Source: Ignavibacteria bacterium (GTDB lineage Bacteria; Bacteroidota; Ignavibacteria; Tepidaquicellales; OLB5). Taken from it: DNA of 33,689 nucleotides. The stretch lies in NCBI GenBank assembly GCA_019912545.1, contig JAIOIK010000107.1, positions 1-33,689 on the forward strand, written 5' to 3'. Below, piece by piece: positions 4,102 through 30,687 of this stretch. The position numbers were made by a program, and so were the translations under genes. Within the stretch, counting starts at the first letter, position 1, and each line of letters starts with the position of its first letter. The notes beneath the pieces are model-generated. The model did no database searches. It was not told where the DNA came from and saw nothing but the letters and a program-made list of their open reading frames with translations.

Positions 4102-4941
4102 ATGCGAGCTCTATTTGTATCTGATCTTCATGGAAAATCCGGACATTTTGAAAAACTTTTTTATTCAATTCTTCAAACCAGGCCTGATTCTGTTTTTATA
4201 GGCGGCGATATCCTTCCAAACTATTATTCTGAAAATCCCGAATCATTTGTTCTTGAGTTCCTGAAGAACGGATTAGTATCCTTAAAACAAAAGCTGAATG
4301 AGAGTTATCCTGCTTTTAATCTTATTCTGGGTAATGATGACCCTGCTGATTCAGTTGATCTATTCCTGCAATTGCAGAATAATGGCTTGATCAATTATAT
4401 TCATAACAGAAAAATTTCCTTTGGGAATGTTGATGTTTATGGTTATTCTTTTATTCCGCCTACGCCTTTTCTGCTTAAGGACTGGGAAAAATACGATGTT
4501 TCGGAATTTGTGCCGAGGGGCTCAGTTTCTCCGGCGGAAGGATACCGAACGGTTGAAGTAGCTCCAAATATTATCAAGCATGCAAGGATCTCTGATGATC
4601 TGAGGCTGCTTACACAAGGGGGAAACAATTTTGAAAACAGCATATTTCTCTTTCACGCGCCACCGCATGATACAAATTTAGATAAGATAATAGCAAATGA
4701 TATTAAAGGCAATAAAGGCATAGTTGGTGTAGGCAGCATTGCCATAAGGAGATTTATAGAGAAGAAGCAGCCGCTAATAACATTGCATGGCCATATACAT
4801 GAATCATCTGCTTTGACGGGAGACTGGAAAGACAGGATCGGCAGTACTTTCTGCTATAACGCGTCGTATGAAGGAGACAAGCTTGCGCTTGTGGCCTTTG
4901 ATACCAATGAACCTGAAAATGCATTAAGAGAACTTATGTAG
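4102..4941 (+). CDS. Calcineurin-like metallophosphoesterase
   Basis: Predicted soluble two-metal phosphoesterase, 279 residues. Metal and catalytic motifs are all in order: D8-L-H10, G-G-D36, G-N78-D79-D, H185 (LFHAPPHD) and G-H231-I-H233. It resembles the archaeal/bacterial metallophosphoesterases that act on nucleotide or phosphodiester substrates; the substrate cannot be named from sequence. No Shine-Dalgarno precedes the ATG, which follows an AT-rich run. It converges with the large minus-strand gene and their 3' ends overlap by 8 bp, so the two are not in one operon. Confidence 0.85.
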   Translation: MRALFVSDLHGKSGHFEKLFYSILQTRPDSVFIGGDILPNYYSENPESFVLEFLKNGLVSLKQKLNESYPAFNLILGNDDPADSVDLFLQLQNNGLINYIHNRKISFGNVDVYGYSFIPPTPFLLKDWEKYDVSEFVPRGSVSPAEGYRTVEVAPNIIKHARISDDLRLLTQGGNNFENSIFLFHAPPHDTNLDKIIANDIKGNKGIVGVGSIAIRRFIEKKQPLITLHGHIHESSALTGDWKDRIGSTFCYNASYEGDKLALVAFDTNEPENALRELM

Positions 4942-7900
4942 CCTCAGATTTCCCGATCCTAAGCTGTTTGGCCGGATCAGTAATTGCCCCTATCTTGCTT
5001 GCGAAGCTCGTCCGTTTTTTGATATCTTCATCAGTAATATAATGCAGGTCAAGCAGTCCATCAGATTCATAACCGGTTTTCAGGTAATTCAATTCTGCCA
5101 GGCATTTACTCCAGCCATCAAACCATAGGTCAAGCTTCTCAATATCCGCAGTTTTGTCATCGATATGTATTAACAGGTCAATATCGCTGCCCGGCCCTGC
5201 ATTTGCATTCTTGGAGCTGCCGAAAACATACAGGCCTTTTACACCGAATTTTTCAGCAGGAATAATCGAAGCTATTTTTTCCGCCATTCTGTAACGCCAC
5301 TGCCAGTAATTGCTTGGCTGCCACTCAACATATTCACCGGCATCAATTTCCTTAATGCTTGAAGTAGTAGGCTCATTAATAAATGCAACCGCTTCTTCAA
5401 GCTCTGCGTTAATGAGTACTTTTAATATACAGCCGTCAGTAACATTAGTAACATCAATAACTTTAATTGTCTCTTCCAGATGTTTATATTCAGGGAGAAG
5501 ATGTTCCAGTATATTATCAGATTTCCTGAAGAATACTTCGTTGAATACTGTACCGTCATCATCCGGGTATAATGGCAGATAGCGTATGGAAGCTTCAACA
5601 AGATCCTGGAAAAAATGTGTTCCGAAAGAAAGGTCAGGCGTATAATTGCCGATCTGTTTTGCTACTTCAATAAGCATTGCAGTATTATTAATATCAGAAT
5701 ACGTTACGTTCACTCCAAGCTTTATATCGCCGCGGCTGCCCCATCTTCCGGGACCTATGAGAATAAACTTTCTCTTCGGCAGTATTTTATTCAGCTTACT
5801 TACTGCGCGGCCAACTTCCAGAAGTTCTTCCCTTGATGAAAGGTTATAATAGCTTTTGGTATCAACATAAACTATATGAGAAATCTCGGGTACTTTGCCG
5901 TTTGAGACATATTTATTTGCAGTAAATATGATCTTCTTTGCCGGAATATCCCTCGGGATCGGGTCGGGCTGAATTTCTTTTGATTTGGTTTGAGACCTGC
6001 ACTGCAGTATATAAAAGTCTTTGCCATCTGATGCAAACTCAATATCCACCGGGTTCTGCGTTCCGCGTTGTAAAGTATTCAAAAGTTCTTTGATCTGGGT
6101 TATAAACGGCCCATTCTGGAAGAGGCCTTCGAACGTAACGATAATGTGATCATTATCATAGTCGGTATTAAACCCGAAAGGCTGGGATATATGATTATCT
6201 TTTATTATTGATATAAGGCTCCTGATATTAGGGTAATCACTTCCGGTTTCTTTAATCACGCGCTCTACTTTTTGAGATTCAAATTCATTGGATTCAAGGT
6301 TTATGACATCGATATTCTGGGGTGTGTATTTCATCTTATCGTGCAGCGAGACATTGACTCTTAAATTTGGCTGTCCGGGGGCGATCAGTATGGGGTAATC
6401 ATCAATAAATCTGTCAACGGCCCGTGTTCCAAGTCCGGGTACAAGTCTCACAAGCCCGTCTTCTCTTTTGATCCTTGGTGACCAGCGGAATTCATTATTA
6501 CTGAAAGCAACTCCTGCAAATGAGGGGAGGTAGTACTTGCCAACTTTAGTGCCGACAACTTCCTGGATCATAATTCCCATTTCTTCATGGAAATCCAGCA
6601 GGTTTCTCTCAGCCCGGTATTCGATTGGGTCAGGGCCAAATGTAGATGCATACACTTCGGATATTGCATCAAGCAATGCAGTGAGTCTTTCGATTTTAGA
6701 CCCCTGGTTGGCAAGAAAAAGGCTCTTGTACTTACCCGAAAATGCTGCGCCGAATTTATCTTCAAGCAGACTGGAGCTTCTTACAACAAGCGGCTTTTCG
6801 CCAAAGTCATCGAGTGCAACGGATACTCCATTTATGAAATCAGGTGAGAAATCTGAATTCTTGAATATTTGTACAATATGAGGATACTCTCTGCGAATCT
6901 CCTCTATCTCTTTGTATTTCTGCTCAATTACTTCTTCAAGCTCATTGTAATGCAGGAAATGCAGTATTCCGTCTGATGGAATGAACCATGTCTTCGGAAT
7001 TCTGATATTCTTGAACAGTTCTGATTCTCTTGCCTTTTTCGCGATTATTTTTGAAGCAAGGAACATTCCAGCGCTTTTACCGCCCAATTTCCCATAGCTT
7101 TTAGAAGGCAGAATTATCTTGTCCGTGAGTTCATAGAAATCCTTTATCTCCACAAAATCTTTGGCGATCGAAATGAATTCTGTCTGGTCTGTGAAAAACC
7201 TTCTTAAGAGCGATACTTTTAATCCTTTTTCGATCGAGGGAGAGAGCTCTCCGTTTGATAGCAGGGGATAATATTTTCTGAGGGCTTCTGCTATTTCATT
7301 TAGCGGAGTCTCAAGAGTTTCAACTGTCTTAACCAGCCCGCTGCATTTATCATCATATATCCACTTTTGCAGCTTGGCAAGTATTTCATCATCGCTCAGA
7401 TTTTCATCTGCAAGGCGCAATACTGATTCTACAAACTCTTCATTATCAAGTGATTTTTTCTTAATAGGCTTGTTCTCATCATATGTTTCTTCTGAAAGGT
7501 CGGAAGTTTCGCGTTCAACACCTGCTTCTTTCAGGAGTTCCTGTGCTTCTTTGTTTTCCTGCCAGCAGAGGTTATGCAGGAGCTTACGGATAATTGTATT
7601 GAAGAGCGGCTTATCGGTCTTCCTGAGCATGTCAAGAATAACCTGCCATTTATGCTTTATTTCTCCATCTGATATTCCGCGAATTGAATCAAGGTCATGT
7701 ATGAATGAATAAGTATCTTTATGAAGTATAAAATGGCTTAATCGTTCTGCAATGGTATTAAGGAGTTTTCTTTCCTCCTTCAGGAAAGGCCCTTCATCAT
7801 AATCTCTTGTTGGTTCAATATAGTTAACAGTTATGCTGCCAATAGGCTCATCATTGATCCTGATATTTGACTTCAAAAACCAGGGAGTCTCAATATAACC

Positions 7901-8122
7901 TTCAGATTTGAAGGACTGACCTTTGTACTCAAGCTTAGCTTTTGTGATAGCAGGGAATTGCCAGCCGGGAGGGATAGCATCAATTACGACATTAAACGCT
8001 TCTTCAAGGCTTATATCCGAATGATTCAAAGTATCTTCGATCTTGTACAGACAATTTAGTTCCTTTGCCCGCTCTTCAAGCTCTTTTACAAGATGTTCTA
8101 TTGGTTGTGATTTTTCAGTCAT
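4934..8122 (-). CDS. GAF-like sensor / PEP-synthase-type ATP-grasp / nucleotidyltransferase fusion protein
   Basis: Giant cytoplasmic protein of 1062 residues. Residues 10-135 are a GAF-like sensor of the type normally found in front of histidine kinases (ELNCLYKI, PPGWQFPAITKAKL, ETPWFLKS, GPFLKEERKLLNTIAERL). Residues 140-330 are helical linker. Residues 340 to about 680 form the PPDK/PEP-synthase N-terminal ATP-binding domain (LGGKSAG 346-352, VRSSSLLED 447-455, FSGKY 461-465). There is then a conserved module with GPGRWG at 790-795 and GTHFF about 35 residues later. The last 110 residues are a pol-beta-type nucleotidyltransferase (GSS...GSDIDLL, with third acid in LLDLHYI). No phosphohistidine (TSHxA-type) or PEP-barrel domain is present. 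The start at ATG 8122 is preferred over TTG 8203 because GAGGAA lies at the right distance before it. A paralogue lies at 22555-25506. Its function is unknown. Confidence 0.85.
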   Translation of the reverse strand: MTEKSQPIEHLVKELEERAKELNCLYKIEDTLNHSDISLEEAFNVVIDAIPPGWQFPAITKAKLEYKGQSFKSEGYIETPWFLKSNIRINDEPIGSITVNYIEPTRDYDEGPFLKEERKLLNTIAERLSHFILHKDTYSFIHDLDSIRGISDGEIKHKWQVILDMLRKTDKPLFNTIIRKLLHNLCWQENKEAQELLKEAGVERETSDLSEETYDENKPIKKKSLDNEEFVESVLRLADENLSDDEILAKLQKWIYDDKCSGLVKTVETLETPLNEIAEALRKYYPLLSNGELSPSIEKGLKVSLLRRFFTDQTEFISIAKDFVEIKDFYELTDKIILPSKSYGKLGGKSAGMFLASKIIAKKARESELFKNIRIPKTWFIPSDGILHFLHYNELEEVIEQKYKEIEEIRREYPHIVQIFKNSDFSPDFINGVSVALDDFGEKPLVVRSSSLLEDKFGAAFSGKYKSLFLANQGSKIERLTALLDAISEVYASTFGPDPIEYRAERNLLDFHEEMGIMIQEVVGTKVGKYYLPSFAGVAFSNNEFRWSPRIKREDGLVRLVPGLGTRAVDRFIDDYPILIAPGQPNLRVNVSLHDKMKYTPQNIDVINLESNEFESQKVERVIKETGSDYPNIRSLISIIKDNHISQPFGFNTDYDNDHIIVTFEGLFQNGPFITQIKELLNTLQRGTQNPVDIEFASDGKDFYILQCRSQTKSKEIQPDPIPRDIPAKKIIFTANKYVSNGKVPEISHIVYVDTKSYYNLSSREELLEVGRAVSKLNKILPKRKFILIGPGRWGSRGDIKLGVNVTYSDINNTAMLIEVAKQIGNYTPDLSFGTHFFQDLVEASIRYLPLYPDDDGTVFNEVFFRKSDNILEHLLPEYKHLEETIKVIDVTNVTDGCILKVLINAELEEAVAFINEPTTSSIKEIDAGEYVEWQPSNYWQWRYRMAEKIASIIPAEKFGVKGLYVFGSSKNANAGPGSDIDLLIHIDDKTADIEKLDLWFDGWSKCLAELNYLKTGYESDGLLDLHYITDEDIKKRTSFASKIGAITDPAKQLRIGKSEAT

Positions 8123-8200
8123 ATTTGTTTCCTCAGGCAGCCTTTTAGAAAGTGAACATTCAGGATTGTATGAAAAACTGTTCCGCGAATAATAAGATAA

Positions 8201-8232
8201 CAAAAGCAGCCGGCAGATGTTTCCCGGCTGCT
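8201..8232 (-). terminator. Intrinsic terminator of the NAD-type glutamate dehydrogenase gene
   Basis: On the minus strand, a perfect 9-bp stem AGCAGCCGG / CCGGCTGCT with a 10-nt loop is followed by TTTTGTTATC. It begins 28 bp after the dehydrogenase stop. The stem also lies upstream of the fusion-protein gene, so that gene probably has its own promoter or relies on read-through. Confidence 0.8.
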
Positions 8233-8259: not shown

Positions 8260-9546
8260 TTACAGCCAGCCTCTATCTTTACAAGCATGTGCAACACGGC
8301 TTATTGATATGACATAAGCGGCATCGCGCATGTAAAGCTTATTTTTAATTGAAGTTTCATAGACTGAATCAAATGCGCTTGACATGATATTATCAAGTTT
8401 GGTAAGGACTTCATCTTTTGTCCAGAAATAATTTATGTTAGACTGAACCTGCTCAAAATAACTGCATGTAACTCCGCCTGCATTTGCAAGGAAATCCGGA
8501 ATCACAAATACTCCCTTTTCAGCAAGTATTTTATCAGCTTCGGGAGTTGTCGGGCCGTTAGCGCCTTCGGCAAGTACCTTAACAGTATCAGCTATCTTTA
8601 CGGCATTATCTCCTCTGACCTGGTTTTCAATTGCTGCAGGTATCAGTATATCAACTTTCTGCTCTATCCATACATCACCCGGAAGTATTTCAAATCCGAT
8701 CTTCTTTGCAGCCTCTTTATCAATTCCGCCGAATTTATCGGTGATCTTCATCAATTCTTCGAAAGTTATACCTGAATCTCTTTTGTATGTATATGATGTC
8801 TGGTCTTTCTGGTCCCAGCATGAAACACAGATCGCTTTTCCGCCAAGCTGTGTGTAAAGCTGCAGCGCATACTGTGAAACGTTTCCGAAGCCCTGGAAGC
8901 TGGCAGTTGTCTTTTTTATATCAATACCAAGTTTAATCAGCGCTTCTCTTAATGTGTAAATTACTCCGTAACCTGTTGCTTCAGTTCTGCCCAGAGAGCC
9001 GCCCATACCAACGGGTTTGCCGGTTATAAATCCGGGGTACTTTCCGCCGTGGATAACTTCAAATTCATCAAGCATCCAAAGCATATGCTGCGCATTTGTC
9101 ATAACATCAGGTGCCGGTACATCATTAATGGGACCAACATTTTTTGCAAGCTGTCTAACCCATCCGCGGCAGATAGATTCCTGCTCTCTCATGCTAAGAT
9201 TGTGCGGATCGCAGATAACTCCGCCTTTGCCGCCGCCAAGCGGGATGCCAACAACTGCGCACTTCCATGTCATCCACATTGCAAGCGCTCTTACTGTATC
9301 AATTGTTTCCATAGGGTGGAATCTAATACCGCCTTTGCTCGGTCCAACAGCATCATTATGCTGAACGCGGAATCCTTTAAATACTTTTGTTGTGCCGTCA
9401 TCCATTTTGATAGGTATGCTGAAATGGTATTCGCGTAAAGGTTCGCGCAGTAACTGGCGTGTCGCATCATCCAGCGATAAAATATCGGCTACTTTATCAA
9501 ACTGGGTCTGTGCCATTTGATATGCATTGAAATTTTTGTCACTCAT
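8260..9546 (-). CDS. gdhA: Glutamate dehydrogenase, NAD-type hexameric class (Glu/Leu/Phe/Val family)
   Basis: Oxidative deamination of L-glutamate to 2-oxoglutarate and ammonia, or the reverse, in the cytoplasm; 428 residues, the usual length. Substrate and catalytic residues K71, K95, K107 and D147 have exactly the spacing (24, 12, 40) of Clostridium symbiosum GDH K89/K113/K125/D165. They sit in GPSKGGIRFHP, WKCAVVGIPLGGGKGG and DVPAPDV. The Rossmann domain has GFGNVS. The TTEAT-type block (GRTEATGYGV) and overall pattern match the RocG/GudB group more than the NADP biosynthetic group; the cofactor is inferred. The start is supported by AGAGGT 9 nt upstream. A second, different-class GDH lies at 29320-30687. 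The gene symbol is generic. Confidence 0.93.
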   Translation of the reverse strand: MSDKNFNAYQMAQTQFDKVADILSLDDATRQLLREPLREYHFSIPIKMDDGTTKVFKGFRVQHNDAVGPSKGGIRFHPMETIDTVRALAMWMTWKCAVVGIPLGGGKGGVICDPHNLSMREQESICRGWVRQLAKNVGPINDVPAPDVMTNAQHMLWMLDEFEVIHGGKYPGFITGKPVGMGGSLGRTEATGYGVIYTLREALIKLGIDIKKTTASFQGFGNVSQYALQLYTQLGGKAICVSCWDQKDQTSYTYKRDSGITFEELMKITDKFGGIDKEAAKKIGFEILPGDVWIEQKVDILIPAAIENQVRGDNAVKIADTVKVLAEGANGPTTPEADKILAEKGVFVIPDFLANAGGVTCSYFEQVQSNINYFWTKDEVLTKLDNIMSSAFDSVYETSIKNKLYMRDAAYVISISRVAHACKDRGWL

Positions 9547-10891: not shown

Positions 10892-13800
10892 TTACCTGTT
10901 GATCTTTTTGCCTTCATTTGGCTGCTGGTTGTCCTTAATCTTAATCGAGCCGTCAAACTGCTTAGTATTCAGTGGTCGGGTAAATCCGCACGGCATAATA
11001 GAACCAAGGCCGCTGTAGGGTACCCATAGTGACTGATCCAATCCGTCAACAAAACCGTCTCCGTTGAGATCGCCTCTTAAGTAACCATCCAGGCCGCTTT
11101 GACCTACCCAAATGGTTTGATCGAGACCATCAACAAACTGATCCTGGTTAATATCTCCGGGCAGCATACCCCAAACAACAGGTGAAGATGATACCTGAAT
11201 CATGTTGCTGCCGTAAGCTTTAGTGCCTGCATCGGTGAAATTATAAGCTGTAACAGCGCCTCTTGTAACAGTTATCCTGTTTGAAGAAGATATTACAACA
11301 TGATTTCTGTGCTTCACGACAAGGAAATAATTGCCGTTTGAAGCATTATTGAAAGTAAATGAGGTCAGGAAAGTAACAGAATCCAATACTCCTTTGGCCG
11401 AATCTACTTTCAGGCAGCCTGCTGCTGAATCAACTAAATATGCCCTTACAGTATCTCTCATTCTGAGTTTACCGGTAGCAGAGTTATAGAAACCTCCCGG
11501 GACTACATTCAGATTCACTGTAATTACCGCAGGCAATCCGGCAAATTCATCAGCTCCAACATCAGGAGTTACAGCGTTGCGCGTATTGCCGTCGTAATCT
11601 GTAGTTATTGCAAATGGTGCTGATATCGGAATGCCGCCGCCTTCACATGCCGTTGGAATAACTGTTGACATATGCAGGTTGTACGGATGCGTAGTTGTGT
11701 TCAAAAATGGCGAGTCTTCGGTAAAAGAATTGTTTTCTCTTGGCGCGACATAAGTTTTGAAATCTGAAATTGTCTGAAAAGCATGGGGTGTGCTTATAGA
11801 CGGATCGAGGTATATTAAATTTTGTGCAGAAGGAGTTCCTGCATAAAAATTATTATTATTTGAGGCAGAATTGTAATTAGTTGTTGTAGTATCTGCCCTG
11901 AATAAGCAAACTGTTGCACCAGTTCCGGTAGCAACAGATTTGTTGACTACAATATTATTTCTGAGATCAACATTTGTTGTCGTGCCGGCAATGTAAAGCG
12001 CCATAGTACCGAAGTTGGTACCAGATGAAGTTGCATTCAGATAGATCGTATTATAGTAATGTCCGCTAGCCAGGGTTCCATTGTGCCAAATTCCCAGTAT
12101 TGCCGGGAAAGTTGGGTTCATATCTGCATACAGCTCGCTGATGAAATTATTGTAAGTAAAGTAAACAGCGGTTGCAATAGTATTAGTCATGAGTATTCCG
12201 TATGTCTGCGGAGTGTTGCCAATACCGGTAGTATTCCTAATGTTATATATACGATTCTTATAAATATATGCAGTATCTGCATAATTCATATAAATTCCGC
12301 CTGTTTGCCCGTAGTTTGTAGTAACATTGTAAACGGAATTTCCATATAAAGTTTTATCACAGCCGCCAGTGGTACCGGTTCCGGAATAAATACCTACAAA
12401 GAACAAAGATGTTGAAGCAGTAGTACCCATATGTGTTATATCATGAACGGTATTATTATTTACATTTTCAATGCCGCCAACTGCCGGCGGACTTCCGTTA
12501 TTGTACATACCGTAAATTACACTTGTAGATGTTGAAGAGCCGCAAGTGATATTATATACCTGGTTATTATAAACGACGGTTATTGGAGTGCTTTGGCTGT
12601 AATACAGGCAATACATAGCGCCGCTTCCGCCTTCTAACTTCCTTAAATCTCTGACTGTGTTACCATAAACATTATATATATTAGCACTTGGGAAAGTATA
12701 AAGCCCTCCTAATGTACCTGTTGTAGAATTATACAGGTCATTTACGGTATTGTTAAATACATTCATAATTCTGCCGCCGGAGGAGATATACATTCCGTAA
12801 CATGTCCCTGAACTAATGACTGACTGAGTTCTTGTTAAGTTTCTTACAGTATTGCCGGAAATGTTAGTAACAGACAATGGATCCAAATTGCTGGCTGAAT
12901 TATATATACCATACTGAGTGCCGGTAGCAGTGGAAAATGACTGTCCGCCAACTGTATTGCTATCAACCGTATTGCCGGTAATGTTTATATTCAGCGCACT
13001 GCCGCCATTATATAAATAATAGCACGTAGCGCTGCTTGCGCTAAAGTAGCGGCACCATCTTACAGTATTATTAGTAATATTAACGGTGTTATCAGTGCCG
13101 GTACTTCCCATACTATTGTATATACCTGCCTGCTGCGATGAAGAAGCTACCGTGCCGTCTGCTGTATCGCTTACAGTGTTATTGGTCAAGTCAACAGATG
13201 AATTTGTTCCGGTACTTAAAAATATACCGTACTGCGTAGCGCTGTTCAATCCTCTGTTTACATTAATTGTGTTGTTGAGAATTCTTAAACTATCGTGGTA
13301 TATGGAGTAAATACCGTAATGTGTGTTGGTATTTGTTGCTCCCACTGAACCGATATTTGAGAGCGTATTACCGGTTACAGTACCTATCTTGAATGAATGA
13401 TCGTATAGACTATATGGGGCAATATCAGCATACCCTGCAAAATACATCCCTATGAAACTATTATTAACAGTACAGCCCTGAACGTTTATGTTCTCGTGCC
13501 TGCCGTCGGTAGTTGTAGGATTTGTTGTGGTGCCTGCTGCATCGATATTAAGTGAAGAAATACCGCAAGTAATGATGTTTATTCTCTCCATATTAATTAC
13601 GCAGCCGCTAAGCGTATCGTTCTTGCATCCGTTTGTGGAAGAACCCCTGACAAAGAGGAATCCATATTCCATTCTTGGAATAGCAACTGCGCCGGTGTAT
13701 AGCTCGGTTAAGTTTATATTCTTGAAAGAAATGTAGTCAGTTCCGACTATTCTGAAAAATGCATCGCCGTTTGATCCAACAGATGCAGAGGTTATCAACC

Positions 13801-14968
13801 CGGAACCTGCGACGTTTGAGAGAAGCTGGGGATTTGATCCTGCTCCGTTCCTCTGGAATATCACCGGTCCTGCTGCGGTTGGCTGGCCGCCGGTAATATT
13901 AATAGTATAGCCACCAGTGGGTATAGTTTCAAAATAACTCGGGATTATGTTAAAAATCACCGGGCTTGTGCCACAAACGCCTCTTGCGTTAAGGTCACTA
14001 ATTGCTGCAGCAACCGTAGCATAACTTCCCGGTATGGTGTAAGTACCGCAAAGCGGCGGCGGGCCCCAAGTCCATGTCTGCCCCGAAGCGGGTTTTATTG
14101 TATTTGTTAAAACGCAATTTGATGTGTTTGAACCGCCTGCTGTAGTTGCTGACCAGTCGGTGGCGGTTGTGCGGATATTAAAATCCGATGTTGTTGTATT
14201 AATTCCGCATTGCGGAGTATAACCTAATGTTACTACTGTCATAGCTCCGAATATGGTAGCTATTTTATTAGTGGTTTCGCTAAGTGTCATCTGGATATTC
14301 ATCACGCTGGCATCTGCGCCGCCACTATATAGACACATAGCGCTCCACTGAACTGTAAAAATACGGTTCGGTGCAACTCCGGTAGTCGTATATGATAAAC
14401 TGCTCGTTGTTCCGTTACCGATCAGATCAGTATGAAAACCGGCATAAATAGTAGTTTGTGTGCTCAAAATATTGGTATAAGAGTTTGATGGAGTCGCGCC
14501 GAATTTGAGATAGCCATTATTACTGATGCCTACGGTAGTATAACTTAAACCGTCGTAAACAAAAGTAAATCCGATAGGTACTGCGGCAAATATTTCGTCA
14601 TCGTTGCCGGATGTGCCAAGAGTGGTACCTGCAATTGGTGTATATGCGCCCGATGTTTGAGACCATGTGTATGGAGCAACAGATTCGGTTACAGGCGTTA
14701 TTGGCTGGATATTATCCAATATGCCGGTAGTGGTTCTTTCAGATGATGACCTGAATTTATTGCTTTCATCAACATAGAACAATCCGTTTGGATCAACCGG
14801 CTTAACTGCATTTTTATTGCCACCAAGAGCATTTAAGTAATCTTTGTACTGTTTAAAGAAGCTTGATTTCTTTTCTCCGTAATTATTACCTGCATCCTGG
14901 CCAAATGAGAACTGTATGGTCATGGACAGGATAATAATTACAAGTATTGGAGTAATTCTGTTTTTCAT
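10892..14968 (-). CDS. Giant secreted parallel beta-helix protein with C-terminal dockerin repeats
   Basis: Exported protein of 1358 residues. It has a signal peptide (MKNRITPILVIIILSMTIQFSFG), then a beta-sandwich region (about 95-300) and a short conserved entry block (CGTYTIPGSYATVAAAISDLNARG). About 700 residues of right-handed parallel beta-helix follow, rich in N-x-V/N-N-T-V turns (NNTVSDTADG, GNTVRNLTR, NNTVNDLYN and similar). After a beta domain come two calcium-binding dockerin-like loops, DINQDQFVDGLDQTIW and DLNGDGFVDGLDQSLW. It ends in a charged tail with no T9SS sorting domain, unlike its neighbour. It is probably a surface or extracellular adhesin or carbohydrate-related protein; no catalytic motif is recognisable. 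Confidence 0.88.
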   Translation of the reverse strand: MKNRITPILVIIILSMTIQFSFGQDAGNNYGEKKSSFFKQYKDYLNALGGNKNAVKPVDPNGLFYVDESNKFRSSSERTTTGILDNIQPITPVTESVAPYTWSQTSGAYTPIAGTTLGTSGNDDEIFAAVPIGFTFVYDGLSYTTVGISNNGYLKFGATPSNSYTNILSTQTTIYAGFHTDLIGNGTTSSLSYTTTGVAPNRIFTVQWSAMCLYSGGADASVMNIQMTLSETTNKIATIFGAMTVVTLGYTPQCGINTTTSDFNIRTTATDWSATTAGGSNTSNCVLTNTIKPASGQTWTWGPPPLCGTYTIPGSYATVAAAISDLNARGVCGTSPVIFNIIPSYFETIPTGGYTINITGGQPTAAGPVIFQRNGAGSNPQLLSNVAGSGLITSASVGSNGDAFFRIVGTDYISFKNINLTELYTGAVAIPRMEYGFLFVRGSSTNGCKNDTLSGCVINMERINIITCGISSLNIDAAGTTTNPTTTDGRHENINVQGCTVNNSFIGMYFAGYADIAPYSLYDHSFKIGTVTGNTLSNIGSVGATNTNTHYGIYSIYHDSLRILNNTINVNRGLNSATQYGIFLSTGTNSSVDLTNNTVSDTADGTVASSSQQAGIYNSMGSTGTDNTVNITNNTVRWCRYFSASSATCYYLYNGGSALNINITGNTVDSNTVGGQSFSTATGTQYGIYNSASNLDPLSVTNISGNTVRNLTRTQSVISSGTCYGMYISSGGRIMNVFNNTVNDLYNSTTGTLGGLYTFPSANIYNVYGNTVRDLRKLEGGSGAMYCLYYSQSTPITVVYNNQVYNITCGSSTSTSVIYGMYNNGSPPAVGGIENVNNNTVHDITHMGTTASTSLFFVGIYSGTGTTGGCDKTLYGNSVYNVTTNYGQTGGIYMNYADTAYIYKNRIYNIRNTTGIGNTPQTYGILMTNTIATAVYFTYNNFISELYADMNPTFPAILGIWHNGTLASGHYYNTIYLNATSSGTNFGTMALYIAGTTTNVDLRNNIVVNKSVATGTGATVCLFRADTTTTNYNSASNNNNFYAGTPSAQNLIYLDPSISTPHAFQTISDFKTYVAPRENNSFTEDSPFLNTTTHPYNLHMSTVIPTACEGGGIPISAPFAITTDYDGNTRNAVTPDVGADEFAGLPAVITVNLNVVPGGFYNSATGKLRMRDTVRAYLVDSAAGCLKVDSAKGVLDSVTFLTSFTFNNASNGNYFLVVKHRNHVVISSSNRITVTRGAVTAYNFTDAGTKAYGSNMIQVSSSPVVWGMLPGDINQDQFVDGLDQTIWVGQSGLDGYLRGDLNGDGFVDGLDQSLWVPYSGLGSIMPCGFTRPLNTKQFDGSIKIKDNQQPNEGKKINR

Positions 14969-20311: not shown

Positions 20312-20908
20312 ATGATTGAAAATCAGTTTTATCACATATATAATCGGGGCAATAACAGGGAAAATATCTTTCTTGAAGAGAAGAATTATAGTTACTTTTT
20401 AGAGAAGTTTGTATTTTACTTGAAGGATCAAGTAAATGTGTATTCTTACTGTCTTATGCCAAATCATTTTCACTTTTTACTGAAAGTGAATGAGTATAAA
20501 AAGACAGGGGTTGTAAGTGAATCAGAAAGTGCTGCTACAAAGAAATTATCACCTTTAGAAAAGTCATTCAAAGATTTTTTTATTTCTTATGCAAAATCTA
20601 TTAATAAATCATATGACCGTACTGGTAGCCTTTTCGAGTATAAATTTAAGAGAAAACTAATCACTAAAGATTCTTATCTGCAAAATATTGTAGCATACAT
20701 ACATTTAAACCTTGTTAGGGCAGGGCTCTCAAAGAATATGATTGAATGGAAACACAGTTCTTTTGGGTTGTTTAAAGAAGAACAGGAGAGTATTCTAAGA
20801 GTTGATATTGCAGAAGTATTAAACTGGTTTAACGGGATGGATAATTTTATTGAATTTCATAACATAAGACATGATTTTACAAAAGAAAGAGATTTATTAT
20901 TCGGGTGA
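20312..20908 (+). CDS. REP-associated tyrosine transposase (RAYT, Y1_Tnp/TnpA_REP family)
   Basis: 198-residue single-strand DNA nuclease/transposase of the IS200/RAYT superfamily. It starts with the typical YHIYNRGNNRENIF block and has the HUH metal motif H52-F-H54 (LMPNHFHFLLK). The candidate catalytic tyrosine Y93 lies in ISYAKSINKSYDRTGSLFEYKFKRK, followed by YLQNIVAYIHLNLVRAG. RAYTs process the REP palindromes that flank them. Here near-identical palindromes lie 14 bp before the ATG and 4 bp after the stop, and two more family members lie 6 kb away. No terminal inverted repeats or target duplications of an insertion sequence are seen, so it behaves as a domesticated REPtron-type gene rather than an IS. 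Confidence 0.92.
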   Translation: MIENQFYHIYNRGNNRENIFLEEKNYSYFLEKFVFYLKDQVNVYSYCLMPNHFHFLLKVNEYKKTGVVSESESAATKKLSPLEKSFKDFFISYAKSINKSYDRTGSLFEYKFKRKLITKDSYLQNIVAYIHLNLVRAGLSKNMIEWKHSSFGLFKEEQESILRVDIAEVLNWFNGMDNFIEFHNIRHDFTKERDLLFG

Positions 20909-22554: not shown

Positions 22555-25506
22555 ATGCTCAAAGAAGAATTAAAGTCGATTTTCAAGATACACAAAAGCG
22601 ATAACGAGATCTACCATGACCTGGCTCAATACCACGTTAGAGAAATACTGCTGGTAACATCACTTTATGACGCATTTATTCTTGAAGAAGAAGAAAAGCT
22701 CAATGAAAAAATATTCGGTGAATATTATAACCTCGATCTATCAAACGTTCCCAGGATCACAAATGCATCTGATGAAAATGAGGTTGAAACTTTTTTAAAG
22801 CAGAAGTATTTCGATTTTGTTATCATTACCATGAGAACGCAGAATATGACACCGCTTGAGCTTGCAGAAATGGTAAAAAACATAAAACCAAACCTGCCGG
22901 TTTTTTTGCTGCTATATGATAACAGCGATATTGCATTTGTAAATAAGATGCGTGATAAGATCGGAATTTTTGAAAGGGTTTTTGTGTGGAACCGTGATAC
23001 AAAGGTATTCCTTGCAATAGTCAAATATTTCGAGGATAAAAGGAATACTGAAAATGATACAAAGGTCGGGCTGGTTAGGGTTATTCTGCTTGTTGAAAAT
23101 TCCATCCGTTATTATTCCCGCTATTTGCCAATTCTTTACAACGAAATTATCAAACAAACTCAACGGCTTATCACAAGAGATAATCTTGACGGTATGAAGA
23201 AGATACTCAGAATGAGAGCAAGGCCTAAGGTACTTATGGCTTTCACTTACGAAGAGGCTATTGAGATATATGAAAAATATAAAGAAAACCTGCTTTGCGT
23301 GATTTCTGATGTAAGGTACCCGCATGGGGGTTCGCTTGATGAAGAAGCGGGGATCAAGCTTTTGAAGCAGATCAAAATGAAGGACCCTGATCTTCCGTTT
23401 TTGCTGCAGTCTTCGGAAAGCGGAATTGCCGAAATTGCTGCAGCAAACGAGGTGTCATTTATCAATAAGAACTCCGATACTCTATCAGAAGACCTGACAG
23501 ATTTTGTATTGAACAACCTGGGGTTCGGCGATTTTATTTTCAGGGATAGAGAGGGAATAGAGATCAGCCGTGCAAATTCACTCGAAGAGTTTAAAAGCCA
23601 GCTTAAGAATGTTCCGTCTCAATCAGTGCTTTACCACGGAACGCGCAATCATTTTTCTGCATGGCTTATGGCAAGAGGGGAGATACAAATTGCAGAAAAT
23701 CTTGAAAGGCTTAAAGTAACTGATTTCCCCGATGCCGATGCAATTCGTAACCATATTATCAAACTTACTAAAAATATCGAGACAACTGTATCCCGTGGCG
23801 GAGTTGTTGAATATAATAAAAAATTCATCGATGAAGATAATATGATCTTGAGGCTTGGCAATGGTTCTTTTGGCGGGAAAGGCAGGGGAATAGCTTTCAT
23901 CAATACACTACTGCAGTCAAAAGAGCTTTTCAGAGGGATCGGGGATGTTTCGGTCAACATACCAAGAACATCAATTATCGGAATTGATGAGTTTGATAAG
24001 TTTATTTCGGGTAATTCTCTCAGTAATATCTACCGAAAGTACAGTTATGAAGAAGTAAAAAAGATCTTCCTGAAAAAAGACCTATCCGATGAACTTATGT
24101 TCAAGCTGAGAAGCTACGTTGATAAAGTTAAAGCGCCCCTTGCTGTGAGGTCTTCGGGAATGTTTGAGGATTCGATATCTGAATCGTTTTCAGGGATATT
24201 CCAGACTTTCCTTATACCCAATAATCATCCCTCACCTATTGAAAGGCTGAAAAATCTTACAGATGCAATTAAGCTTGTATATGCTTCGGTGTATTCATCA
24301 CACTCGAGAAGTTATTTTGAAGCAATAAATTACAGGATAGATGATGAAAAAATGGCTGTTGTGATCCAGGAAATTGCAGGCAATAATTTTGGTGATGTAT
24401 TTTTTCCCCATATTTCGGGTGTTGCGCAGTCATATAACTTTTACCCTATCTCACGGTTCAAACCGGAAGAGGGCATTTGTATTGCCGCTGTTGGACTTGG
24501 AAAGTATGTTATTGATGCAGAAAAAGCTTACAGGTTCTGCCCGAAATTCCCGAAGGTTGATATTTCTGATCCTGAAACCGCGCTTAGAGAGTCGCAATCT
24601 TTTTTATATGCAATTGATATGAGTAAGCAGCTCTCTAACCTTGCAGAAAGTGAAGATATTACTTTAAAAAGAATTGATATTGCAGAGGCAGAAAAGCTTG
24701 GTGTGCTGGACGATGTTGTTTCTGTGTTCGATCCGCAGGATAACAAACTTAAAGTAGGGCTGAATTTTAACGGGCCGAGGATAATTAACTTCGCGGGAGT
24801 TTTAAAATATGATTCATTCCCGCTTGCGAAAGTCCTCTCTCGTTTACTTGAAATTATTGAAAGCTCAATGGGTTTGCCGGTAGAAATTGAATTTGCCGTC
24901 AGCCTTGATGAAGATAAACCGTGCTTCTATATACTTCAGCTTAAGCCGCTTATAAGGAGCAGTGAATATTATTCTGTTGATGCCGATGAGCTTAATAAAG
25001 AAAACCTTATCTTATATACTGAAAGAGGAATGGGTAACGGAAAAATAGATAATCTTTCGGATATTATTTATGCAGATCAGGACTTGTTCAATAAAGCCGA
25101 GACTCAGCAAATGGCAATTGAACTTGAAAAATTGAATGAAAAAATGCGTAAAGAAGGAAGAAATTATGTCCTTATTGGCCCCGGGAGATGGGGAACCCGC
25201 GACAGATGGCTTGGCATTCCGGTGAACTGGACACAAATTTCAAACGCAAAAATAATCGTTGAAACTGATCTTGAAGATTTCCGTGTTGATGCTTCTCTTG
25301 GCTCGCACTTTTTCCACAATATTACCTCCATGAATATCGGTTACCTTACTGTGCATCAGACCAATGGAAGGGATTTTATTGATTGGGATTACCTGAAGTC
25401 AATTAAACCCGAAAACACCACAGATCATTTTGTACATCTTCATTTTGAAAAACCTTTCACAATACTAATGGATGGCAAAAAAAGCCTGAGCGTGATATTA
25501 AAGTAA
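22555..25506 (+). CDS. Receiver-domain / PEP-synthase-type ATP-grasp protein
   Basis: 983-residue cytoplasmic protein, paralogue of the 1062-residue fusion at 4934-8122. Residues 28-160 look like a degenerate receiver (the phosphoacceptor position in FDFVIITM is not Asp). Residues 172-320 are a second receiver with E181, likely phosphoacceptor D252 (CVISDVRYP) and K305. Residues about 430-800 are the PPDK N-terminal ATP-binding domain (FGGKGRG 439-445, LAVRSSGMFED 529-539, FSGIF). The C-terminus has the shared module with GPGRWG 875-880 and GSHFFHN about 35 residues on. There is no phosphohistidine domain, no PEP barrel and no nucleotidyltransferase. It is probably activated by phosphorylation of D252; the reaction is unknown. 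The ATG has no strong Shine-Dalgarno. Confidence 0.87.
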   Translation: MLKEELKSIFKIHKSDNEIYHDLAQYHVREILLVTSLYDAFILEEEEKLNEKIFGEYYNLDLSNVPRITNASDENEVETFLKQKYFDFVIITMRTQNMTPLELAEMVKNIKPNLPVFLLLYDNSDIAFVNKMRDKIGIFERVFVWNRDTKVFLAIVKYFEDKRNTENDTKVGLVRVILLVENSIRYYSRYLPILYNEIIKQTQRLITRDNLDGMKKILRMRARPKVLMAFTYEEAIEIYEKYKENLLCVISDVRYPHGGSLDEEAGIKLLKQIKMKDPDLPFLLQSSESGIAEIAAANEVSFINKNSDTLSEDLTDFVLNNLGFGDFIFRDREGIEISRANSLEEFKSQLKNVPSQSVLYHGTRNHFSAWLMARGEIQIAENLERLKVTDFPDADAIRNHIIKLTKNIETTVSRGGVVEYNKKFIDEDNMILRLGNGSFGGKGRGIAFINTLLQSKELFRGIGDVSVNIPRTSIIGIDEFDKFISGNSLSNIYRKYSYEEVKKIFLKKDLSDELMFKLRSYVDKVKAPLAVRSSGMFEDSISESFSGIFQTFLIPNNHPSPIERLKNLTDAIKLVYASVYSSHSRSYFEAINYRIDDEKMAVVIQEIAGNNFGDVFFPHISGVAQSYNFYPISRFKPEEGICIAAVGLGKYVIDAEKAYRFCPKFPKVDISDPETALRESQSFLYAIDMSKQLSNLAESEDITLKRIDIAEAEKLGVLDDVVSVFDPQDNKLKVGLNFNGPRIINFAGVLKYDSFPLAKVLSRLLEIIESSMGLPVEIEFAVSLDEDKPCFYILQLKPLIRSSEYYSVDADELNKENLILYTERGMGNGKIDNLSDIIYADQDLFNKAETQQMAIELEKLNEKMRKEGRNYVLIGPGRWGTRDRWLGIPVNWTQISNAKIIVETDLEDFRVDASLGSHFFHNITSMNIGYLTVHQTNGRDFIDWDYLKSIKPENTTDHFVHLHFEKPFTILMDGKKSLSVILK

Positions 25507-29319: not shown

Positions 29320-30687
29320 CTACACTATACCATAAGCAAGCATTGCATTGGCTACTTTAATGAATCCGCCAATGTTTGCGCCTGTGAGGTAATCGCCTTT
29401 TCTGCCGTAAGCTTCTGCAGTATCAAGACATGTTTTGTGAATGCTCTTCATAATACCAAGAAGCTTAGCATCAACTTCTTCGCGGCTCCAGAGTAAGCGC
29501 ATGCTGTTCTGGCTCATTTCAAGTCCTGATACAGCTACACCGCCTGCATTAGCAGCTTTTGCCGGTCCATACAGGAAGTTATTTTCCTGGTAAACCTTAA
29601 TTGCATTTAAGTCGCTTGGCATATTAGCGCCTTCTGATACACAGTAGCATCCGGCTTCAGCAAGACCTTTTGCGAGAGTCTCATCAAGCTCGTTCTGTGT
29701 TGCGCAGGGTAATGCGATATCAACTTTCAGGCCGTGTTCTTTTATAACTTCCCAAACGCCTTTGCCTTCATAATATTTCACATTATGTTTATCAGCGTAT
29801 TCTTTAATTCTTCCGCGGCGGTTGTTCTTAAGATCAAGCAGGAATGCAAGCTTGCCTGCATCAATACCTGATTCATCAACTATCGTGCCGTTTGAGTCTG
29901 ATGCCGTTATAGGGATACCGCCAAGATGGTTGACCTTTTCAATTGCATACTGCGATACGTTTCCTGAGCCGCTAACTGCAACGCGTTTGCTCTTAAATTC
30001 CTCGCCGCGTGTTGCAAGCATTTCTGCAGCAAAGTAAACTGTACCATAGCCTGTTGCTTCGGGTCTTATTAAGCTTCCGCCGTACTCAAGGCCTTTGCCT
30101 GTTAATACGCCGGTATGTTCATTAACTATCTTTTTGTAGTAGCCGTACATGTAGCCGATCTCTCTTCCGCCTACACCGATATCGCCTGCGGGAACGTCTC
30201 TATCGGGACCGATATGACGGAAAAGCTCTCTCATAAATGCCTGGCAGAAACGCATAACTTCGTCATCTGATTTTCCTTTAGGCTCGAAATCACTTCCGCC
30301 TTTTCCGCCGCCCATAGGGAGTGTGGTCAAAGCATTCTTGAAGATCTGTTCGAATCCGAGGAACTTTAATATTCCCAGATTTACTGAAGGATGGAATCTC
30401 AAGCCGCCTTTATACGGGCCGATAGCATTGTTGAACTCTATCCTGAATCCGCGGTTCACCTGAACTTCGCCTGCATCATCAACCCATGGTACACGGAATA
30501 AAATAGCCCTATCAGGAACAACTATTCTTTCATATATTTTTGCTTTTACAAATTCAGGGTGTTTTGCTACTGTTGGTTCTAATGTTGTAAGGACTTCCTC
30601 TACGGCCTGGAAAAATTCAGGCTGAGCTGTATCTTTGATTTTAACTTTTTCAATTACTTCTTTAATAACTGAAGACGATTTTGCCAT
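29320..30687 (-). CDS. gdhA: NADP-type glutamate dehydrogenase
   Basis: 455 residues, the biosynthetic hexameric class, assimilating ammonia onto 2-oxoglutarate. The residue set K93, K117, K129 and D169 again shows the 24-12-40 spacing. It sits in the class-specific blocks NNAIGPYKGGLRFHP, LGFEQIFKNAL, PMGGGKGGSDFEPKGKSD and DVPAGDIGVGGREIGYMYGYYK. SGSGNVSQYA marks the cofactor fold. The start is well supported by AAGGAG 9 nt before the ATG. A Bacteroidetes-type promoter lies at 30764-30795. The other GDH in this window (8260-9546) belongs to a different subgroup, so the cell probably separates assimilation from catabolism. Confidence 0.95.
   Translation of the reverse strand: MAKSSSVIKEVIEKVKIKDTAQPEFFQAVEEVLTTLEPTVAKHPEFVKAKIYERIVVPDRAILFRVPWVDDAGEVQVNRGFRIEFNNAIGPYKGGLRFHPSVNLGILKFLGFEQIFKNALTTLPMGGGKGGSDFEPKGKSDDEVMRFCQAFMRELFRHIGPDRDVPAGDIGVGGREIGYMYGYYKKIVNEHTGVLTGKGLEYGGSLIRPEATGYGTVYFAAEMLATRGEEFKSKRVAVSGSGNVSQYAIEKVNHLGGIPITASDSNGTIVDESGIDAGKLAFLLDLKNNRRGRIKEYADKHNVKYYEGKGVWEVIKEHGLKVDIALPCATQNELDETLAKGLAEAGCYCVSEGANMPSDLNAIKVYQENNFLYGPAKAANAGGVAVSGLEMSQNSMRLLWSREEVDAKLLGIMKSIHKTCLDTAEAYGRKGDYLTGANIGGFIKVANAMLAYGIV

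Follow-up and report, generated by a model that had tools for sequence, protein, structure and literature searches.

The locus examined here raises the question of what can be done by a protein that joins, in a single chain, a sensor, an ATP-binding domain of the phosphoenolpyruvate (PEP) synthase type and a nucleotidyltransferase. The gene lies in a stretch of 33,689 nucleotides (the window), contig JAIOIK010000107.1 of the Ignavibacteria bacterium assembly GCA_019912545.1, and its product is called FUS below. FUS belongs to a widespread family, so far undescribed, of dikinase-like signalling proteins linked to glutamate dehydrogenase (GDH), and GDH as its target is strongly suggested by genomic context. 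We assign a probability of roughly 0.5 to the reading that FUS is a GDH-dedicated, sensor-controlled phosphotransfer regulator of the dikinase type, which carries an accessory nucleotidyltransferase. Its parts are the following:

4934..8122, minus strand: fusion protein FUS, 1062 aa, with GAF-like sensor, helical linker, PPDK_N ATP-grasp domain, GPGRWG module and pol-beta nucleotidyltransferase
7703..8122, minus strand: GAF-like sensor, residues 1-140, with a near-invariant ELxCLY motif; assigned by Foldseek
7118..7702, minus strand: helical linker, residues 141-335; from the AlphaFold model
5954..7090, minus strand: PPDK_N ATP-grasp domain, residues 345-723; from Pfam, conserved residues and structural alignment
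5348..5953, minus strand: GPGRWG module, residues 724-925; probably a swivelling domain of the phosphohistidine type, highly diverged, negative in the sequence test
5615..5617, minus strand: invariant His836 of G(T/S)HFF, at a helix start; candidate phospho-acceptor
4988..5311, minus strand: pol-beta nucleotidyltransferase, residues ~938-1045, with GS968-969, D980, D982 and D1025; from Pfam

The open reading frame covers 4934..8203 on the minus strand; with the conserved ATG at 8122, common to the FUS orthologues, as start, the product has 1062 aa. Pfam detects PPDK_N (PF01326; residues 345-723, E=1.4e-56), NTP_transf_2 (residues 957-1002, E=3e-7) and Polbeta (1.6e-6); GAF, PEP-utilizers (PF00391) and PEP-barrel are without a match on FUS even at E<=10. 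The NCBIfam PEP-synthase models (PEP_synth) match partially and far under their cut-off, and a sequence search of the PDB gave no significant match. Orthologues are found in about 24 of 59 related genomes, at ~50-95% identity and nearly all at full length, and a scan of species genomes revealed at least 582 loci of the family, the best 80 of which show ~50-80% identity. As assigned by record titles, the loci span more than a dozen phyla: carriers are Ignavibacteria and other Bacteroidota, Zixibacteria, Neomarinimicrobiota, Calditrichota, Acidobacteriota, Aminicenantes, Planctomycetota, Gemmatimonadota, Myxococcota, Cloacimonadota, Fermentibacteria, Spirochaetes, Eisenbacteria, Krumholzibacteria and others. 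Since hundreds of genomes repeat this architecture, at 50-95% identity, chance or assembly error is ruled out, and the fusion proposed in an initial annotation of this DNA is real. Mean conservation over 83 FUS sequences is 0.72 in both PPDK_N and the module, 0.65 in the nucleotidyltransferase, 0.56 in the sensor and 0.51 in the linker.

GDH is one of the main links between carbon and nitrogen metabolism, and in the window a GDH gene directly precedes that of FUS, which is followed by a convergent gene:

8260..9546, minus strand: glutamate dehydrogenase GDH428, 428 aa, directly upstream of FUS on the same strand, with a 137 bp gap
4102..4941, plus strand: calcineurin-like metallophosphoesterase, convergent, with an 8 bp overlap with the FUS 3' end; conserved neighbour

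The recurrent order in relatives is GDH, often a gene for a short paralogue (sPPDK, missing in the window), FUS and then the metallophosphoesterase, which may be the reversing enzyme. The loci and genomes behind the linkage counts are related, hence non-independent events, and the recurrence across phyla is a stronger point than the counts themselves. A GDH gene lies within 3.5 kb upstream of FUS in 47 of the 56 loci with enough flank (on the same strand in 45), sPPDK stands directly upstream in 38/65, mostly with an overlap of a few bases, and the phosphoesterase is found downstream in 32/54, on the opposite strand in 31. At the same loci, 57 GDHs occur in the 422 kb near FUS vs 5 in the 344 kb farther off. 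Presence patterns of GDH428 (at least 60% identity) and FUS agree in 57 of 59 genomes, 23 having both and 34 neither, and the two discordances (G008, G036) lie at contig ends; among the relatives searched, the GDH428 subtype is confined to FUS-bearing genomes. Moreover, FUS-linked GDHs have in common an insert of three residues, WDQ, at 244-246, which the other aligned GDHs, unlinked or receiver-linked, do not have. Since the FUS gene stands almost always beside a GDH gene, FUS probably controls GDH. Across more than a dozen phyla of bacteria, GDH and these unstudied dikinase-like signalling proteins are joined in a conserved operon, and a literature search turned up no published link between PPDK_N proteins and GDH.

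The core formed by PPDK_N and the module is present in three paralogue classes: FUS, the short sPPDK of ~580 aa and the receiver-bearing RRPPDK. The latter pairs in other genomes with GDHs of another type, GDH455, and has a GDH within ~1.5 kb in 23/30 loci. GDH and RRPPDK genes alternate in arrays at L197, L198, L199, L202 and L208, and a single cluster may hold as many as three GDHs, which are of two kinds; L197-L199 show orders such as GDH-RRPPDK-HK-RR-GDH-RRPPDK-GDH (HK, histidine kinase; RR, response regulator), and at L208 two GDHs, RRPPDK, sPPDK and FUS are found side by side. The initial annotation, partly supported overall, missed both the GDH linkage and a second family member, P0002, in the window:

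22555..25506, plus strand: paralogue P0002, 983 aa, with receiver-like domains, DUF5752, PPDK_N and GPGRWG module, no nucleotidyltransferase
29320..30687, minus strand: NADP-type glutamate dehydrogenase GDH455, 455 aa, related to the GDHs that accompany the RRPPDK class

The first receiver of P0002 seems to be without its Asp (VIITMRT), and the second retains ISDVRYP. A survey of aspartate-less receivers, in the part available, mentions dikinase outputs on receivers (PMC4395418), and P0002 has such a receiver-PPDK_N architecture; neither GDH linkage nor the form with GAF and nucleotidyltransferase is mentioned in that part of the survey.

The PPDK_N ATP-grasp domain of FUS has conserved catalytic residues, as in PEP synthase and PPDK. 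Residues K349, R448, E454, D455, E695, Q707 and R709 are invariant or nearly so in the three classes, as are R793, W794, G795, D799, E819, H836 and F837 of the module. K349 and R448, both invariant, are the motif equivalents of Lys22 and Arg117 of rifampin phosphotransferase (RPH), to which a part in positioning the phosphates of ATP has been ascribed (PMC4844700). Foldseek matches the middle of FUS to the RPH ATP-grasp (2.4e-15), and RPH is also the best structural match in VIA-align (Z 27.0).

The initial annotation had stated that FUS contains no phosphotransfer domain. This holds for the canonical Pfam domains, PF00391 and PEP-barrel, but the statement is insecure, since the module, with its invariant His, aligns structurally with swivelling phosphohistidine domains. 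The final AlphaFold model (127 sequences, pLDDT 89.3, pTM 0.76) replaced a run with 18 sequences, in which the module lay mostly under pLDDT 50; it predicts strand-helix-strand elements in the module, with H836 opening a helix after a strand and a glycine loop, a placement that, by our own comparison, would resemble that in swivel domains. The VIA-align alignment to PEP synthase 2ols (Z 26.7) comprises 364 residues (model 1-584, chain 4-467), more than the 287 (model 1-377) aligned with the isolated ATP-grasp domain 5hv6_A, so that it continues through the module. The alignments to PPDK 1kbl, 1ggo and 1jde (model 1-5 to 579-594, chain 2-4 to 505-521, 327-353 residues) and to 2r82 also run through it, and PPDK alignments restricted to the ATP-grasp have 228-230 residues. 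Because the alignments extend in this way, the module appears to sit at the place of the swivelling phosphohistidine domain and probably shares its fold; thus, it is a probable, still unproven, diverged member of this domain type. No solved structure turned up as a match for the module alone, and a new fold is not claimed.

At the N-terminus, the first FUS model is matched by Foldseek to GAF domains (NifA 8jrc, 3ci6) with a probability of 0.98-1.00 and E of 0.1-0.6 (E>=0.07 for all GAF matches). The GAF-like nature of the sensor, as initially annotated, is supported by this predicted structure but not by the Pfam search. Such a sensor was initially described as normally preceding histidine kinases; in related operons, this domain forms the N-terminus of histidine kinases encoded upstream of the GDH operon, at 38-41% identity (L036:14655-15827, L037:11812-13062, L055:6045-7214); a sensor common to FUS and these nearby kinases suggests that one signal feeds both transcription and enzyme control. 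The second part of the linker, from residue ~156, is retained even in short variants that lack sensor and nucleotidyltransferase.

In the mechanism that we propose, the GAF-like sensor would read a signal and control the ATP-driven, dikinase-type core; the ATP-grasp domain would activate ATP and phosphorylate a histidine, most likely H836, on the module, acting as a diverged swivelling domain; and the phosphoryl group could then pass to GDH or to a GDH-bound partner, switching GDH activity. The C-terminal nucleotidyltransferase would provide an accessory output by transferring nucleotides to GDH, to FUS itself or to the short partner, while the convergent metallophosphoesterase may undo the modification. 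The receiver-bearing paralogue might have the same role for other GDH types, under two-component control. Dedicated modifiers of a dehydrogenase or synthetase at the 2-oxoglutarate/glutamate node are AceK, the isocitrate dehydrogenase kinase/phosphatase, and GlnE/GlnD; FUS could be a work-alike of these enzymes, with which no homology was detected. More tentatively, and with somewhat less than even odds, the family as a whole may be an undescribed, phylum-spanning GDH control system, in which dikinase-type phosphorelay proteins in GAF-bearing, receiver-bearing and stand-alone forms, each serving its own GDH, together with nucleotidyltransferase and phosphoesterase, would have the role that GlnE/GlnD-type cascades have for glutamine synthetase elsewhere. 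Should GDH prove to be modified by FUS-type proteins, these would represent a novel kind of dikinase, one directed at a protein, and ammonium assimilation would be widely regulated in this manner with no need for GlnD/GlnE.

Several observations weigh against this picture. As to the module, hhalign comparison with the PF00391 swivel in several class combinations was not significant (P 0.13-0.6), so that structure prediction aligns FUS onto the swivel domains of PEP synthase and PPDK but profiles do not. In one profile alignment of low confidence, the partner of GGRTCH is GPGRWG and not GTHFF; the long profile alignment of the core with PEP synthase is carried by the ATP-grasp part, with GPGRWG/GGRT paired at very low confidence. 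The swivel motif of small-molecule dikinases is T/SxxGGxxxH (PMC12167813), which the module does not match exactly, having S-x-G-(T/S)-H at 832-836, and the structural alignment is known as residue ranges, a His-to-His match not being directly seen. As to GDH, 9/56 loci are without an upstream GDH, some having one farther off; GDH455 is 3.8 kb away from P0002 in the window; and two FUS-like proteins of 776-778 aa (L267, L268) have neither sensor, nucleotidyltransferase nor GDH neighbour, being possibly the core enzyme with another partner. Furthermore, gene linkage and co-occurrence show association, not substrate.

Alternatively, the nucleotidyltransferase could be the effector, modifying GDH as GlnE does glutamine synthetase, with the PPDK_N core and module sensing ATP/energy or relaying the signal. 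The domain matches PF01909 and PF18765 above cut-off, and the GS motif, DxD and third Asp of pol-beta nucleotidyltransferases are all present; its three acidic residues, as initially annotated, are nearly invariant over the 83 aligned sequences (D980 in 82, D1025 in 83, D982 in 78, with N in 4). Foldseek matches the FUS C-terminus to an MNT antitoxin, the domain resembling the AMPylating MNT/MntA enzymes and AAD(9), and GlnD/GlnE domains (PF03710 / PF08335) were unmatched anywhere in the genome of the window, in searches whose controls were positive; for P-II a weak match only was obtained. However, D982 is replaced in those four sequences, the catalytic residues of the ATP-grasp are fully conserved, unlike in a mere sensor, and the domain is dispensable for the linkage: GDH428 still adjoins a FUS-like gene without nucleotidyltransferase (L045) and two with a degenerate one (L046, L271), and both GDH-linked paralogue classes, sPPDK and RRPPDK, lack it. 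The neighbour also persists where the sensor is missing (L269). Since loss of either domain leaves GDH428 in place, the GDH-linked activity is best placed in the core of PPDK_N and module, with the nucleotidyltransferase as accessory; the emphasis first put on the latter is not sustained, and its role as effector is unlikely.

FUS could also be a metabolic dikinase or ligase. The characterised ATP-grasp relatives considered here, RPH, HpeHI, PEP synthase and PPDK, work on small molecules, and GDH linkage could be pathway linkage, the core phosphorylating or activating a small molecule that GDH makes or uses, such as glutamate, 2-oxoglutarate or a derivative, with the sensors tuning a pathway enzyme. 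This seems doubtful, as no domain for a second substrate, whether PEP barrel or RIF-binding, can be recognised in FUS, and several GDH types each have their own sensor-bearing PPDK_N partner, in paralogue arrays that fit regulators better than one pathway step. That FUS is an ordinary relative of PEP synthase or PPDK making PEP was already disfavoured and is extremely improbable: the PPDK_N match and the partial PEP_synth one speak for it, against the missing PF00391 and PEP-barrel domains and a separate canonical PPDK in the genome (C143, TSHAA swivel). This PPDK, and the paralogues with sensor domains or in GDH operons, support the earlier view that FUS is an enzyme under signal control and not a metabolic dikinase. 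A catalytically weak scaffold, binding ATP and metabolites and regulating GDH allosterically by contact, with no covalent modification, would agree with a GDH linkage independent of the nucleotidyltransferase and with a phosphohistidine domain absent at the sequence level; it is very improbable, given ATP-grasp and module residues, H836 included, invariant across three divergent classes, and a phosphoesterase as conserved neighbour.

Compared with known systems, the phosphotransfer regulator favoured here is closest to RPH and the two-component small-molecule dikinases (HpeHI, CreHI, PpsAB), with which FUS shares an ATP-grasp of the same fold, the conserved Lys/Arg and a probable His-carrying mobile module; unlike RPH and HpeHI, it has no rifampin- or phenol-binding domain, its swivel motif is not recognisable by sequence, it adds the GAF-like sensor and nucleotidyltransferase, and it is GDH-linked. 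The order of ATP-grasp and swivel-like module is that of PEP synthase and PPDK, the structural alignment covering both; in contrast to these enzymes, FUS has a nucleotidyltransferase at the C-terminus instead of the PEP/pyruvate barrel, and no canonical GGxTSHAA motif. MntA/MNT AMPylating antitoxins have the same small pol-beta fold with GS and DxD, whereas in FUS it is a C-terminal fusion domain and no HEPN partner was seen. A defence role was considered for FUS and is not supported, PADLOC and PHROGs giving nucleotidyltransferase similarity only.

PF00391 matches in the genome fall elsewhere only, outside FUS, and a PTS (phosphotransferase system) enzyme I-like protein (C83) is also separate. 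In the rest of the window, 10892-14968 encodes a protein of 1358 aa that neither Pfam nor NCBIfam matches, and 20312-20908, which gives a weak match (E=1.2e-4) to Y1_Tnp (IS200-like), lies immediately upstream of the gene for a NamZ exo-muramidase.

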